A stretch of 64,000 nucleotides of DNA from Bdellovibrio bacteriovorus W (GTDB lineage: Bacteria > Bdellovibrionota > Bdellovibrionia > Bdellovibrionales > Bdellovibrionaceae): assembly GCA_000525675.1 (NCBI GenBank), contig CP002190.1:1612001-1676000 (forward strand), read 5' to 3'. The notes beneath the pieces are model-generated. The model made no database searches. It was not told where the DNA came from and saw only the letters and a program-made list of their open reading frames with translations. Within the stretch, counting starts at the first letter, position 1; each line of letters opens with the position of its first letter. Below are positions 55,081-60,083 of the stretch, one piece after another. The translations under genes were made by a program, and so were the position numbers.

Positions 55081-56664
55081 ATGTTTGCAATGATTGCATT
55101 GGCCATCGCCGGCATTATTTTGGGCGGAGTTCTTGGTTGGAGTTTCCACAAGTATCTCAACGCTCGCACGCTTCGTCACGCTAAAGACGAAGCTCAGCAC
55201 ATCGTAGGCGAAGCTAAAGAATTGATCGAATTAAAAAGCTTAGAAGAAAAAGAACGCATTCAAGAAATTGAAATCGAAATGTGGACAAAGGTTGAACCTG
55301 ACCTTTTGAAATTTGAAAGCCGCATCGAAGAACTTCAAGAACTTGCTGCCGAGAAAAAAAGTAAAGCCGATAATACGCTTCAAGAGGAAAAGAAAAAACT
55401 TTCTGACTATGAAGCGGAAATTAAAAGTCACGAACAAGTTCTTAAGGCAAAAGAAGCCGACTCTTCAAAAACCAAAGAAGTTAAAAAATCTTTGAACCAA
55501 GAGTTTGTTGAAAAGCTGACTTCAAAACTTGAAACGACAGCGGATGCCTTCAAAACTGAGCTGAAGACAAAAATGGAAGAAGAGGCGCATCGCCATGCTG
55601 CTCAGTTTATCGAGCGCTCTGATGAGGACGCCAAAGAAGGTGCAGAGAATCGCGCTAAAAGAGTTTTAAGCTTAGTGATCGACCGCTTTGCTCGCCCCTA
55701 CTGCGCAGAACGCGGTATCGGCGCCGTGAATTTCCCAGACGCCCATGTGCGCAAACTGTTTTGCGACCCAGAGGGGAAAAACATCAAAGCTGTTCAAGAG
55801 TCTTGCGGTTGCGACATTATCGTTGAAGAAAATATGGACATGGTAGGCGTTGCTGGATTTGACCCTGTTCGTAGGGAACTCACTCGTAGAACTTTGGAAA
55901 GAGTTTTTAAAGAGAAGAAAAACATCAATGCTGATTTCATTCGCAAGATTGCGGAGAATCAGAAAAAAGAACTCTTTAAAAATATCAAACACGATGGCGA
56001 CAACTTAGCAAAAGAGCTGAAGCTCGAAGGCCTTAATCCTGAAATCCGTCAGATGATGGGATCTTTGCGCTATCGTTACTCTTTCACTCAGAATCAATAC
56101 TTCCATTGCGGAGAAGTGGGCTGGCTAGCTGGCTTACTGGCTGCTGAGGTTGGTGTCGACATTAAAAAAGCACGCCGTGTGGGCATGCTTCATGACATTG
56201 GCAAATCCATGGACCACTCTCAAGAAGGCGGCCATGCGGTGATCGGAGCAGACTTTATTGAGGCACGCGGAGAAGCTCCTGACGTAGTCCACGCCGTTAA
56301 AGCCCATCACTTTGATGAACAACCTTCAACGGACCACGCGTTTATTGTGATTGCTGCCGATGCGGTTTCTGGGGCTCGCCCTGGAGCACGTCGCTCAACA
56401 ATTGAGTCCTATAACCAAAAGGTCTCTGAGTTGCAGGATATTGCCCGCAGCTTCCAAGGTGTGACTGATTGCTTTGTACTGAGCGGAGGCCGCGAATGCC
56501 GAGTCTTGGTGAACGGCAAAAAGGTCGATGATCTTCAGGCTCTGGAGCTTTCTAAAAAGATTGCTCACAAAATTGAAGAAGAGTGCAACTACCCTGGTTC
56601 TATTAAAGTCGTTGTCGTACGCGAAGTGGTCGTGAGCGAACAAACTCGCAAAGAGATGGCTTAA
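55081..56664 (+). CDS. rny: Ribonuclease Y
   Basis: This 527-residue RNase Y has every part: an N-terminal membrane helix (residues 3-20), a long charged coiled coil (to about 190), a KH domain (VIVEENMDMVGVAGFDPVRR region), and an HD domain with HDIGK and the family signature SGARPGARR. It starts decay of mRNA at the membrane. AGGAG is seven bases before the ATG. It is monocistronic with a strong terminator. Compared with Firmicute RNase Y, the segment with CxC (ESCGCDIIVEE) is unusual but does not affect the catalytic residues. Confidence 0.96.
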   Translation: MFAMIALAIAGIILGGVLGWSFHKYLNARTLRHAKDEAQHIVGEAKELIELKSLEEKERIQEIEIEMWTKVEPDLLKFESRIEELQELAAEKKSKADNTLQEEKKKLSDYEAEIKSHEQVLKAKEADSSKTKEVKKSLNQEFVEKLTSKLETTADAFKTELKTKMEEEAHRHAAQFIERSDEDAKEGAENRAKRVLSLVIDRFARPYCAERGIGAVNFPDAHVRKLFCDPEGKNIKAVQESCGCDIIVEENMDMVGVAGFDPVRRELTRRTLERVFKEKKNINADFIRKIAENQKKELFKNIKHDGDNLAKELKLEGLNPEIRQMMGSLRYRYSFTQNQYFHCGEVGWLAGLLAAEVGVDIKKARRVGMLHDIGKSMDHSQEGGHAVIGADFIEARGEAPDVVHAVKAHHFDEQPSTDHAFIVIAADAVSGARPGARRSTIESYNQKVSELQDIARSFQGVTDCFVLSGGRECRVLVNGKKVDDLQALELSKKIAHKIEEECNYPGSIKVVVVREVVVSEQTRKEMA

Positions 56665-56831: not shown

Positions 56832-57263
56832 ATGGTGGTTGAAACGACTTCATCCTTAGAAAAACAGCATTCAGCAAGAGTGCTCGTCATTGATGACAAT
56901 CTTGATTCTGTTAAACTCATGTCTCATATTTTGGATCACTATAAGTGCGATGTAACAATGGCCTTTGACGGCCAAGATGCAATTCCACTACTTATCAACC
57001 GACAATTTGATTTAGTGATCTTAGATTGGCAAATGCCTCAAATGGGCGGCCGCGATACTCTTTTGCTCATGGACCGCCTCTTAAACGAAAAAGGCGTAAA
57101 GGTACGCAAACCTATTCCCGTCGTTATCTACACGGGTCACAGCGAAGAAGAACTCGATTTACCTCTAATCAAACACTTCGCCTACACAGGGTTCATCAAC
57201 AAAAAACAATCTTTTAGCTCGATGATGCGCTCCTTCAACTTCATCCTGCGCTCCCTCACATAA
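56832..57263 (+). CDS. CheY-like response regulator (single receiver domain)
   Basis: The 143-residue protein is a lone receiver domain. The acidic pocket is D21 and D22, the phospho-acceptor D65 in LVILDWQMP, T101 in IYTG, and K124 in INKK. No output domain is present, so it must act by protein contact, as CheY or Spo0F do. The start follows GGAG. No kinase gene is adjacent. Confidence 0.92.
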   Translation: MVVETTSSLEKQHSARVLVIDDNLDSVKLMSHILDHYKCDVTMAFDGQDAIPLLINRQFDLVILDWQMPQMGGRDTLLLMDRLLNEKGVKVRKPIPVVIYTGHSEEELDLPLIKHFAYTGFINKKQSFSSMMRSFNFILRSLT

Positions 57264-57283: not shown

Positions 57284-57323
57284 AACAAAAAAAAATCCCC
57301 ATCTAAAAAAAATAGATGGGGAT
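57284..57323 (-). terminator. Terminator downstream of fadE and the palindromic repeats
   Basis: On the minus strand, GATCCCCATCTA pairs with TAGATGGGGAT, and a run of nine Ts follows. Reading from fadE, it comes after both repeat copies, so they would be part of the fadE 3' untranslated region. Confidence 0.7.
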
Positions 57324-57367: not shown

Positions 57368-57489
57368 GGTTGGTCAAATGGGTTCAGATGCGAGGCGGAG
57401 GGCACTACCCGCAACGCAGGCGTACTCTAAGTACGCCGGAGAGAGGACAGGGCCCGACAACGAAGTCAGATGGGCCCATTTCACCAACC
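57368..57489. repeat. Palindromic repeat, copy 1 (122 bases)
   Basis: The ends GGTTGGTCAAATGGG and CCCATTTCACCAACC pair over 14 of 15 bases. The centre holds GGCGTACT-CTA-AGTACGCC. GATGCGAGGCGGAGG and CGACAACGAAGT are shared with copy 2. There is no convincing protein frame. Confidence 0.85.
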
Positions 57490-57503
57490 GCTATAAATCA
57501 CAA

Positions 57504-57624
57504 GGTTGGTCAAAAAGGTTTGGATGCGAGGCGGAGGTAGGCTCTCGCAGCGTAGGCGTGCTCAATGCACGTCGAAGCGAGAAAGCCTGCCGACAACGAA
57601 GTAGACAGGCCTTTTTCACCAACC
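57504..57624. repeat. Palindromic repeat, copy 2 (121 bases)
   Basis: The ends GGTTGGTCAAAAAGG and CCTTTTTCACCAACC pair as in copy 1, with paired (compensating) base changes. The centre is GGCGTGCT-CAA-TGCACGTC. A further stem joins TCTCGC (57543-57548) with GCGAGA (57577-57582). It starts 15 bases after copy 1 and ends at the fadE stop codon. Confidence 0.85.
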
Positions 57625-57626
57625 GA

Positions 57627-60083
57627 CTAAGGGATTACTTTGTTGGCGTGGTATTGTTCTTCGTTAAAATCATCAACCAAGATCGCATCATAACGAACAG
57701 CATTTGATTCTTGAATCAACTTGCCTTCTTCCGCTGTGATTACGTTCTTTGCAACAGCTTCATCAACTAAAGTTGCAGGTTTTTGCTTAGGAAGAACTTT
57801 AGTATGAATCGCTTTTCTGATTTTCTTCTCAGCAGCGTCTGCTTTTAAAGAGACAGAGAATGCATACTCAAGACGACCTAATTGTTCGTCACGATTTTTC
57901 GGCATGTAGATGCCTTCCGTCAGACGATCACGGATTCCGCCTTCTTCCATCATTGCTGACGCAATAGCGTGTGACCAACCGTCAGAAGCCTGTGAGCCAA
58001 TAGAGTTGATACGTGACCAAGCACCTAACCAACCTTTGAAGAACCAACGAACTCCTGGGATCTTTAAGTTATCAAAGATACCATCGAAACCTTTTTGGAT
58101 TTCTGCCATACAGTTTTTAAGGCTGTAGTGAACAAAAGCTAGATCTTCTTTACGACGACCTTCAGCTTCAAAACGGCGAAGAACAGAAGTTGCGATATAC
58201 ATATTAGCTAAGATATCAGCAAAACGACCTGTGATTTTCTCACGCATTTTTAACTGACCGCCAAGAACACCCATTGCCACGTCAGCTAATAATGCAAACG
58301 TCGCTGAAGTCCAAGATAGACGACGGAAGTAAACGCGCATTTGCGGGTGACAATCCGGAGTCGCAGCTAAATAACCTCTTGAGCAAGATAACAAGATCGC
58401 ACGGCAAGTATTTCTTACGATGTGACCGATATGACCGAAGAACGCTCTATCGAAACCACGAACGTCGTTCGCTTCGTAGGCTCTAACTTCTTCATAAGCA
58501 AATGGATGCGCACGAAGAGCACCTTGACCAAAGATGATCAATGTACGAGTCATAATGTTAGCACCTTCAACCGTGATACCGATTGGAGTTGCAATATAAA
58601 TTTCAGCTAACAAGTTGCGGGGACCTAAAGAGATACCAGCTCCGCCCATGATGTCCATAGCGTCGTTAATAACTTTACGACCCATTTCAGTCGTATAGTA
58701 TTTCTGCATCGCTGTGATAACGCCTGGCTTGATACCTTTATCAAGAGCACCTAAGCAGTACAATCTCATCGCTTCCATTGTATAAGTTGAAGCACCGATG
58801 CGAGCTAGAGGCTCTTCAACACCTTCGAACTTACCAATTGGCATACCGAACTGTTTACGAATAACAGAGTGAGCAGAAGTCACGCGTGTCGCAAGCTTAG
58901 CTCCACCGGCTGCTTGTGCAGGAAGAGAAATACCACGGCCTGCCGCTAGACACTCCATAAGCATCATCCAACCGCCACCAGCTCCGCTTAAACCACCTAC
59001 GATAGCTTCTTCAGCATCGACAACCACGTCTTTACCGTGTGTTGGGCAGTTATAGAAAGCAGTATTCAATGGATCATGACGACGACCAAGAACAACTCCT
59101 GGAGTCGATGAAGGAATCAAAGCACAAGTGATACCTACGTCTTCACCTTTACCCAAAAGATTCTCTGGGTCACGAAGACGGAACGCAAGACCGATCACAG
59201 AAGAGATCGCCGCTAGAGTGATCCAACGCTTATTCCAGTTCAAACGGATTTTGATACGCCCGTCTTCACCTTTAAATAAAACACCTTGAGAAGTGATTGA
59301 ACCTGCATCAGAACCCGCCGTCGGCTCTGTTAAACCAAAGCATGGGATTTCGGTTCCGTCAGCAAGACGTGGCAACCAATGTTTTTTCTGAGCATCTGTT
59401 CCGTAGTGTGCCAGTAACTCAGCAGGACCCAAAGAGTTTGGAACCATCACTTGAATCGCAACAGCCAATGATCGAGAAGAAAGTTTCATGATCACTTCAG
59501 AGTGACAAAGAGCTGAGAAACCCAGTCCGCCGTATTCTTTAGGAACGATCATACCTAGGAAGCGCTCTTTACGAATAAAGTTCCAGATCTCTTCTGGAAT
59601 TTCTTTAGTTTTATAAATATCCCAGTGATCGATCATTGCACAAAGCTTTTCAACGGGACCTTCCATGAAGGCTTTTTCTTCCGCTGTTAGGCTTGGATAC
59701 GGCTCTTGCATTAAGTTCGAGAAGTTTGGTTTACCAGAGAAAAGATCTTTCTCTACCCACACAACCCCTGCATCCAATGCTGCCTTTTCAGTTGCAGAGA
59801 TGCTTGGCAAGAATTCAAACTTTTTGAAAATGGCGAAAACACCCTTTGTTACCAGCACCGTACGGATTGCTGGAATATTGAAAATCGCTGCAATCACTGC
59901 AAAAGCAATCATCAACCAGATAGGTGCACCAAATCCCCAAAGCATAACTGCTAGGGCAATTGTCCAAACGATCAAAGGACTGCTAAAGAATCCAATGAAC
60001 AATAATAATACCAATGAGCCCAAGACCCAAAGGACCGGCATTTCTGAACAGAAATATCCGTGTAAAGAGTTGAGTAGTTCCAC
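57627..60083 (-). CDS. fadE: Acyl-CoA dehydrogenase FadE
   Basis: The 818-residue protein matches the large gamma-proteobacterial FadE type. Hydrophobic N-terminal helices (residues 14-70) precede an acyl-CoA dehydrogenase core with FGLTEPTAGSDAGS, LNWNKRWITLA and AGRGISLPA, and a long C-terminal extension with DUF1974-like content follows. It catalyses the first step of fatty-acid beta-oxidation at the membrane. GTG start at 60083 lies eight to nine bases behind AAGGAG. It has its own promoter and probably lies alone. Confidence 0.95.
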   Translation of the reverse strand: MELLNSLHGYFCSEMPVLWVLGSLVLLLFIGFFSSPLIVWTIALAVMLWGFGAPIWLMIAFAVIAAIFNIPAIRTVLVTKGVFAIFKKFEFLPSISATEKAALDAGVVWVEKDLFSGKPNFSNLMQEPYPSLTAEEKAFMEGPVEKLCAMIDHWDIYKTKEIPEEIWNFIRKERFLGMIVPKEYGGLGFSALCHSEVIMKLSSRSLAVAIQVMVPNSLGPAELLAHYGTDAQKKHWLPRLADGTEIPCFGLTEPTAGSDAGSITSQGVLFKGEDGRIKIRLNWNKRWITLAAISSVIGLAFRLRDPENLLGKGEDVGITCALIPSSTPGVVLGRRHDPLNTAFYNCPTHGKDVVVDAEEAIVGGLSGAGGGWMMLMECLAAGRGISLPAQAAGGAKLATRVTSAHSVIRKQFGMPIGKFEGVEEPLARIGASTYTMEAMRLYCLGALDKGIKPGVITAMQKYYTTEMGRKVINDAMDIMGGAGISLGPRNLLAEIYIATPIGITVEGANIMTRTLIIFGQGALRAHPFAYEEVRAYEANDVRGFDRAFFGHIGHIVRNTCRAILLSCSRGYLAATPDCHPQMRVYFRRLSWTSATFALLADVAMGVLGGQLKMREKITGRFADILANMYIATSVLRRFEAEGRRKEDLAFVHYSLKNCMAEIQKGFDGIFDNLKIPGVRWFFKGWLGAWSRINSIGSQASDGWSHAIASAMMEEGGIRDRLTEGIYMPKNRDEQLGRLEYAFSVSLKADAAEKKIRKAIHTKVLPKQKPATLVDEAVAKNVITAEEGKLIQESNAVRYDAILVDDFNEEQYHANKVIP

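Follow-up and report, generated by a model that had tools for sequence, protein, structure and literature searches.

Two tandem hairpin repeats beside fadE in Bdellovibrio bacteriovorus W as members of a dispersed element with replication-linked orientation

Between the convergent genes for a response regulator and a fadE-type acyl-CoA dehydrogenase, the genome of Bdellovibrio bacteriovorus W carries two tandem palindromic repeats of about 120 nt, which raises the question of whether they serve the fadE transcript—in whose 3' untranslated region an initial annotation had placed them—or belong to something more widely distributed. We examined them in the window (the whole stretch of 64,000 nt analysed here), in the genome of the strain and in its relatives. 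Both copies lie where that annotation had located them; they share the motifs GATGCGAGGCGGAGG and CGACAACGAAGT, are spaced 136 nt apart and have 74% identity over 102 nt (Table 1). The matched differences described for their arms are real, with AAATGGG/CCCATTT in unit A against AAAAAGG/CCTTTTT in unit B, and GGCGTACT/AGTACGCC against GCGTGC/GCACGT. The ends of the repeats, however, had been given wrongly: in both copies alike, the outermost arms are in fact GGTTGGT/ACCAACC, which enclose a conserved C.C mismatch. Likewise, the central pairing annotated as GTGCT/TGCAC amounts to four pairs and a T.T mismatch.

Table 1. The two units, their parts and the neighbouring features, in window coordinates
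Feature	Position	Strand	Remarks
Unit A	57368..57489	+	Subtype with GGGNNNNNCCCGCAACG in the 5' arm; covariance-model match C1:1669367-1669491, 133.8 bits
Unit B	57504..57624	+	Subtype with GGTAGGCTCTCGCAGCG in the 5' arm; covariance-model match C1:1669503-1669626, 136.9 bits
Unit A outer 5' arm GGTTGGT	57368..57374	+	Partner 57483-57489 ACCAACC; fold; alignment columns 7-13 with 123-129
Unit A outer 3' arm ACCAACC	57483..57489	+	C57375.C57482 is the conserved C.C mismatch
Unit A conserved 5' internal-loop motif GATGCGAGGCGGAGG	57387..57401	+	A form of the same motif occurs in other phyla
Unit A apical stem GGCGTACT-cta-AGTACGCC	57419..57437	+	Sequence, fold, covariation
Unit A conserved 3' internal-loop motif CGACAACGAAGT	57455..57466	+	Sequence, alignment
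Unit B 5' internal-loop motif GATGCGAGGCGGAGG	57523..57537	+	Sequence, alignment
Unit B 3' internal-loop motif CGACAACGAAGT	57591..57602	+	Sequence, alignment
Unit B outer 3' arm ACCAACC	57618..57624	+	Ends 2 nt short of the fadE stop codon
fadE-type acyl-CoA dehydrogenase gene	57627..60083	-	Stop codon 57627-57629 adjoins unit B; leading strand (GC skew)
Response-regulator gene	56832..57263	+	Convergent with fadE; ends ~104 nt from unit A
Terminator-like hairpin ATCCCCATCTA/TAGATGGGGAT with A and T runs at its flanks	57295..57323	.	Read by eye, unscored; between the response regulator and unit A

In RNA folding, the + strands of the two units had z-scores of -5.2 and -7.7 against 200 dinucleotide shuffles and the - strands -6.1 and -5.0, and DNA folding, applied to the + strand only, gave -4.3 and -4.1; no shuffle was as good in any of these comparisons. 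That this design recurs at 50 genomic places puts the fold pattern in the window far outside what chance would produce. An RNase Y-like protein (RNase_Y_N plus HD domain) is encoded at positions 55081-56664 of the window, two genes upstream of the repeats.

A dispersed family and its fold

The repeats belong to an element that forms an imperfect hairpin of ~122 nt and occupies at least 50 distinct places, grouped in 37 clusters, in the genome of the strain (3,006,992 bp on one contig, C1). This count derives from a covariance-model search at E ≤ 0.1, in which 16 of 66 matches were echoes of the palindrome on the opposite strand; with 150 of 706 first-look candidates scored, it is a lower bound. 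A DNA search of the same genome gave 36 matches. The model was built from alignment A1, which holds 40 full units out of 46 and omits one truncated unit and five short partial copies. Two internal-loop motifs of the element are fixed, GCNNGGCGGAG on the 5' side and CGACAACNNAG on the 3' side, and its stems are variable yet complementary; the C.C mismatch and the internal loops are kept in nearly all copies. A shorter variant of ~102 nt with the same polarity also occurs (C1:2255845, 2352871, 2398874 and 2659578 on the + strand, 865228 on the - strand), and in loci L361 and L369 as well as at C1:556954-557042 another small hairpin, CAAAATGCC..GGCATTTTG, takes the place of the element's centre as a nested repeat. 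Rfam held no match to the element above gathering score: at lax thresholds the best E-value was 0.016, with all 11 matches under their cut-offs, and Poribacteria-1, considered as an identity, matched weakly over its full length (E 1.9) and was treated as chance. The parts of the literature open to searches by sequence string and by topic contained no description of the element in Bdellovibrio.

The covariation test that the annotation had proposed on further copies was strongly positive, and changes that break pairing are not as frequent as changes that keep it. Across the 40 copies of A1, 97.2% of 1600 cells are paired and 29 of 40 pairs have changed on both sides (258 cells), with none of 500 shuffles matching any of five measures; sliding the partner column by 1-3 positions lowers pairing to 34-44%. 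Compensatory change had been taken as direct evidence of selection on the fold, for which it is insufficient by itself, because in quasi-palindromes template switching can copy one arm onto the other. Selection is argued for instead by the kept mismatches and by two further observations. In the inner helices, G-T cells outnumber A-C cells by 133 to 9 (p 2e-29; 11 to 8 in the outer arm), and the fold is therefore constrained on one strand. Moreover, two loop positions outside Watson-Crick pairing covary, with AA/GC in 79 units, GA/GA in 30, AA/GA in 15, GC/AA in 11 and other combinations in 3 (138 units parsed among 146, 8 being unparsed), and may form sheared-type pairs. By RNA folding the element strand has the greater stability in 38 of 40 own copies, and by DNA folding in all 40.

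In 106 units from relatives (14 of 120 without clean anchors being omitted), six positions of the outer arms are 89-97% Watson-Crick paired with 0-9% wobble, after which pairing stops. At three of these positions the bases of different copies agree at a near-random level (identity 0.32-0.37), against 0.51-0.75 at the others. A basal stem of fixed length is thus kept with a largely free sequence.

Orientation by replication and placement at gene ends

With dnaA at position 415 and a sampled GC skew that changes sign between 1.51 and 1.56 Mb, the orientation of the element in the genome follows a simple rule: all 50 listed places carry it on the - strand before the skew turn and on the + strand after it. 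The better-folding strand accordingly sits on the leading-strand template, and nearly all copies are oriented by replication direction. Leading ORFs make up ~57% of those sampled (103/182), so gene strand bias alone would produce such polarity with a probability of ~2e-8 at 31 sites treated as independent. Of the 190 units listed for ten complete relatives, 178 show the same polarity, the units of G002 and G023 being among the matches listed in one search and those of the other eight genomes among the matches listed in another. The polarity is also kept between divergent genes (12/13). Nine of the 12 exceptions fit the GC skew of their own 2.5-kb locus, a noisier measure with which 10 of 108 consistent units disagree. 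Five of the 12 fall in one genome, G007, where 10-kb skew samples beside them fit 4/5 and the 2.5-kb loci 5/5. The GC skew of G007 is broken into several segments, which suggests large inversions or an assembly problem, and element orientation there mostly tracks the local skew. With such near-perfect replichore polarity, each copy marks the direction of replication; it was this that flagged the rearranged G007 chromosome.

To place the element relative to genes, ORFs were taken by a simple longest-ORF rule, no gene finder being used, and the flanking ORFs of own sites were placed outside the units. At 24 of 31 own sites the 3' end of the element lies ≤10 nt from the stop codon of an antisense gene, and in 17 convergent own gaps, each between one leading and one lagging gene, the adjacent stop is that of the leading gene in 15 cases and that of the lagging gene in none. 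Contexts were also determined for 120 of the 190 listed units of relatives. Forty of these were hand-picked, starting with the 12 polarity exceptions; the 150 units not so chosen contributed 80, made up of every G017 unit still left and part of a random sample. Here 72 of 120 units adjoin a stop codon: in 49 the gap is 0-10 nt, in the other 23 the unit runs into the ORF end by ≤14 nt, and the commonest gap is 0 nt. No fixed target motif was found in these surroundings, nor any clear target-site signature. Stop codon usage at element sites is close to background, so TAG, considered as a target, is not a strict one (p 0.35 at own sites; modestly enriched in relatives, odds ratio 1.8, p 0.045); in relatives TGA is depleted (odds ratio 0.46, p 0.044). 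Two single cases may be added: a filled site (site 2 below) has a possible TAAGGA repeat, and in locus L029 (1502-1626; C1:1059532) an antisense ORF overlaps the element end and apparently stops at a TGA that the element supplies.

For the repeats in the window, these regularities answer part of the opening question. Unit B does adjoin the fadE stop codon, as its assignment to the fadE 3' untranslated region implies, but its best-folding strand is antisense to fadE. Because of this antisense fold, the location of the units between convergent genes and the abutment of the element on stop codons at 24 of 31 own sites, nothing about the arrangement is specific to fadE.

Turnover, candidate transposases and spread

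The element model has matches in 20 of 23 genus relatives, and individual sites are frequently empty. Among 24 fadE loci in the genus, that of strain W is filled, that of G014 holds a remnant and 22 are without the element in the 227 nt after the stop codon. In L325 and L326, from other members of the genus, a short palindrome, AAGGTACGCCGTACCTT, directly follows the fadE stop codon and is perhaps another type of REP. We followed ten sites through a trio of related species: six (sites 2, 3, 5, 6, 7 and 8) have an empty counterpart, with gene-end identities of 86-98% and two of the three species empty at site 6, and the other four (sites 0, 1, 4 and 9) are filled, or hold shortened or rearranged copies, wherever seen; insertion and loss are not separable at every one of these sites. 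The free sequence of the outer arms had prompted the idea that they are copied from the target, which the empty sites 5 and 6 do not support. Copies with internal deletions occur at L372 and L364. At three pairs of orthologous sites (L176/L101, L180/L161 and L349/L367), flanks and outer arms are alike and the bodies differ, as if by conversion or re-insertion.

A REP-type transposase, which the annotation had advised looking for in the genome, did not turn up there: Y1 transposase (PF01797) has no match in strain W. It is present, however, in 21 of 23 genus relatives, and sometimes beside the element. The ten complete relatives have 50 Y1 matches, and of the 40 loci fetched for these, seven have an element downstream on the same strand (five full elements and two of the ~102-nt variant, L381:1961-2061 and L407:1262-1364), by our own arithmetic ~40-290 nt from the Y1 stop codon, against a rough chance expectation of ~0.1-0.3 such pairs. 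The other 33 loci examined have none, and in none of the 40 does an element lie upstream or on both sides. No Y1 gene was found near element copies in own loci, in the 80 listed loci of named genomes with the loop-motif pattern or in one viral contig. Two relatives without a Y1 match, G016 and G008, still carry 19 and 7 model matches among those listed, and G017 has one weak Y1 match yet 60-70 model matches.

The 40 Y1 proteins fall into two clusters, one with 26 members and one with 14. Every one of the seven linked genes belongs to the larger, a restriction that is not significant (Fisher two-sided p 0.07). Twelve aligned proteins of the 26-member cluster share invariant H89-x-H91 and Y152, corresponding to the HUH motif and the predicted single catalytic tyrosine of an IS200/IS605-type Y1 transposase. 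PF01797 scored over its cut-off in both Y1 proteins scanned, and a profile of the 12 matches the ISHp608 transposase structures 2a6m (E 8e-6) and 2vhg (9e-6). The NCBIfam models IS200 and REP_Tyr_transpos match 12/12 at E ≤ 0.01, with the member scored in full under both curated cut-offs. For the RAYT model NF047646, which all 12 match within that E-value limit, the cut-off is 80 bits and the two proteins scored in full reach 28 and 18; in place of the Y---NP signature of RAYTs, Y---NE, Y---NF or Y---DL is present.

Beyond the genus, 73 of 290 genomes of the phylum (genus included) match the model at E ≤ 1e-6, and the pattern of two loop motifs occurs in at least 80 loci of named genomes, among which those listed include Nitrospirae, Deltaproteobacteria, Streptomyces, Nocardioides, Ruminococcus, Planctomycetota and Chloroflexi. 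With matches near contig ends left out, 78 matches from 38 hand-labelled sources were compared. Apart from Alphaproteobacteria 338R and Synergistaceae, every source has motif flanks that pair better with each other than with the flanks of other organisms; the gain is modest in Pseudomonas, Desulfobacteraceae, some Planctomycetota and the abundant Dive96 bin. Some single matches, for example those in Pseudomonas and Mesorhizobium, may be due to chance. In Streptomyces himastatinicus (10.9-Mb contig), the five longest matches lie on the - strand at 6.3-10.0 Mb and on the + strand at 0.36 Mb, which fits the same polarity if a central origin is assumed; 18 of 25 shorter matches agree and 7 disagree. 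Plasmids yielded one partial Bdellovibrio match (AP029178.1:32528-32616), and phages none. One viral contig, L378, carries the core pattern.

Origin of the element and relation to known systems

Taking these observations together, we lean towards the view that both repeats represent a dispersed, non-autonomous REP-like element that is, or once was, mobilised as a single strand by a Y1/HUH enzyme. A transposase of the IS200/IS605-RAYT kind would insert, or would once have inserted, the element through single-stranded DNA at the replication fork, recognising the loop motifs together with the basal stem of fixed length; such insertion would give rise to replichore polarity, and strain W would have lost the transposase and kept relic copies. 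An orientation biased by replication direction, as found here, is a feature of single-strand, replication-coupled transposons. The strand sense is another matter: IS608 and ISDra2 are described, in the available portions of PMC6006769, as transposing as single strands into and out of the lagging-strand template, whereas the better-folding strand of the element is on the leading-strand template. If that strand is compared with the active strand of IS608, either the complement would be the active strand or copies in the other orientation would have been lost. This opposite strand sense is one of the weak points of the REP-like reading, along with the transposase missing from strain W, the rarity of Y1 linkage, and the absence of any tag or target motif. 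The element may also have a secondary influence on how the 3' UTR folds and on translation of the upstream gene.

More tentatively, and as a possibility to which we give less credence, the element may exemplify a class of long single-strand hairpins spread over many phyla, with a fixed non-Watson-Crick internal loop (GCAAGGCGGAG / CGACAACGCAG and covarying forms) and otherwise arbitrary stems, which would be moved by a distinct Y1 branch, be inserted in one orientation defined by replication and be aimed at gene ends without a target sequence. If so, a single mobile class, recognised by a common loop, would take in hundreds of intergenic hairpins of predatory bacteria together with look-alikes from Nitrospirae, Actinobacteria, Firmicutes and Planctomycetota. 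The polarity would then offer a test of how single-strand transposition couples to the fork, and the question would arise of how insertion reaches a few bases past a stop codon with no sequence target.

Polarity could also be the product of loss, copies of any origin being deleted or cleaved (by slippage or an SbcCD-type nuclease) wherever the better-folding strand comes to lie on the lagging-strand template. We hold this to be unlikely, even though the more stable strand of nearly every own copy is on the leading-strand template, the internal deletions at L372 and L364 fit it, and the RNA strand asymmetry is larger in polarity-consistent units of relatives than in exceptional ones (-10.5 vs -5.8 kcal/mol; 94 vs 12 units, p 0.008): with DNA parameters, which are the relevant ones, the two groups do not differ (p 0.19), and most G007 copies keep the orientation of their local skew, as would follow from an orientation fixed at insertion under slow selection. 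An improbable alternative is that the hairpins serve the host as RNA, stalling terminating ribosomes in the 3' UTR, protecting mRNA or terminating transcription, and are retained near stop codons by selection. Adjacency to stop codons, with gaps peaking at 0 nt, speaks for it, as do some sites that are occupied in distant species as well, both flanks being ~70-80% identical (u786329/L134 and u681917/L120, for example), and REPs of Escherichia coli less than 16 nt from a stop codon are reported to down-regulate translation in the text available from PMC12306157. Yet it is the strand antisense to the adjacent mRNA whose fold is constrained, polarity in divergent contexts is left unexplained, and empty counterparts are common (6/10 followed sites, 22/24 fadE loci).

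Template switching between the arms, which would maintain pairing mechanically and not through selection on the fold, agrees well with outer arms that are highly complementary, poor in wobble and at three of six positions near random in identity. It is nevertheless a very improbable account of the whole, given that mismatches stay uncorrected, the C.C mismatch and the internal loops persist in nearly all copies, the inner helices favour G-T over A-C by 133:9, and non-Watson-Crick positions covary. Equally hard to credit is an ordinary GTAG/CGTC-tagged REP or REPIN with its RAYT. Y1 genes do occur in relatives, some of them linked, and the element is intergenic and downstream of genes, much as GTAG REPs also abut ORFs in the consulted parts of PMC3733652; against this stand a length of ~122 nt rather than 20-40 bp, feet without a tag, the lack of an inverted pair of identical REPs and the RAYT model score of 28 against a cut-off of 80. 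The element is a variant and not a canonical REP, because the GTAG/CGTC tags are missing. The REP-like element, with its probable movement by single-strand Y1/HUH activity, can be set beside several known systems.

Integron attC sites are long imperfect hairpins just after a stop codon, with a strand-specific fold that includes mismatches, and stand in cassette arrays. The Bdellovibrio element resembles them in all but the last respect, being dispersed, and its outer arms do not appear to fit the attC core. With the IS200/IS605 family (IS608, ISDra2) it is connected through the family of HUH and single-tyrosine proteins, but it is without a gene or a fixed target tetranucleotide and has its better-folding strand on the leading-strand template. 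The terminal inverted repeats associated with TIRYTs, Y1 transposases unlinked to GTAG REPs according to the accessible sections of PMC3733652 and PMC6006769, share with the present system this independence of GTAG REPs; in contrast to them, and as far as this element is concerned, none of the 40 Y1 genes had copies flanking it at both ends.

The closest comparison is with the dispersed extragenic palindromes described, in the portions at hand of PMC3733652, PMC2817692 and PMC6006769, as GTAG/CGTC-tagged REPs and REPINs with RAYT transposases. Like them, the element is dispersed, extragenic and mostly downstream of genes, and related genomes have Y1/HUH genes, some with a copy alongside. Unlike the 20-40 bp palindromes of the available text of PMC3733652, it is a single imperfect hairpin of ~122 nt at 50 places, and in 140 units neither foot bears a GTAG/CGTC or other tag, positions outside the arms holding at most ~0.6 bit. 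It is not a REPIN, that is, two inverted copies of one REP, in that GCNNGGCGGAG and CGACAACNNAG differ and only the stems are inverted. In contrast to RAYT systems, a cognate Y1/HUH gene is missing from its own genome, linked copies lie downstream only and never on both sides, with no element upstream of the 40 Y1 genes examined, and the transposase scores under the RAYT cut-off. What belongs to the Bdellovibrio element, finally, is a strict replichore polarity—not reported for REPs in the parts of PMC3733652, PMC2817692 and PMC6006769 available to us—and a pair of fixed internal-loop motifs common to several phyla.
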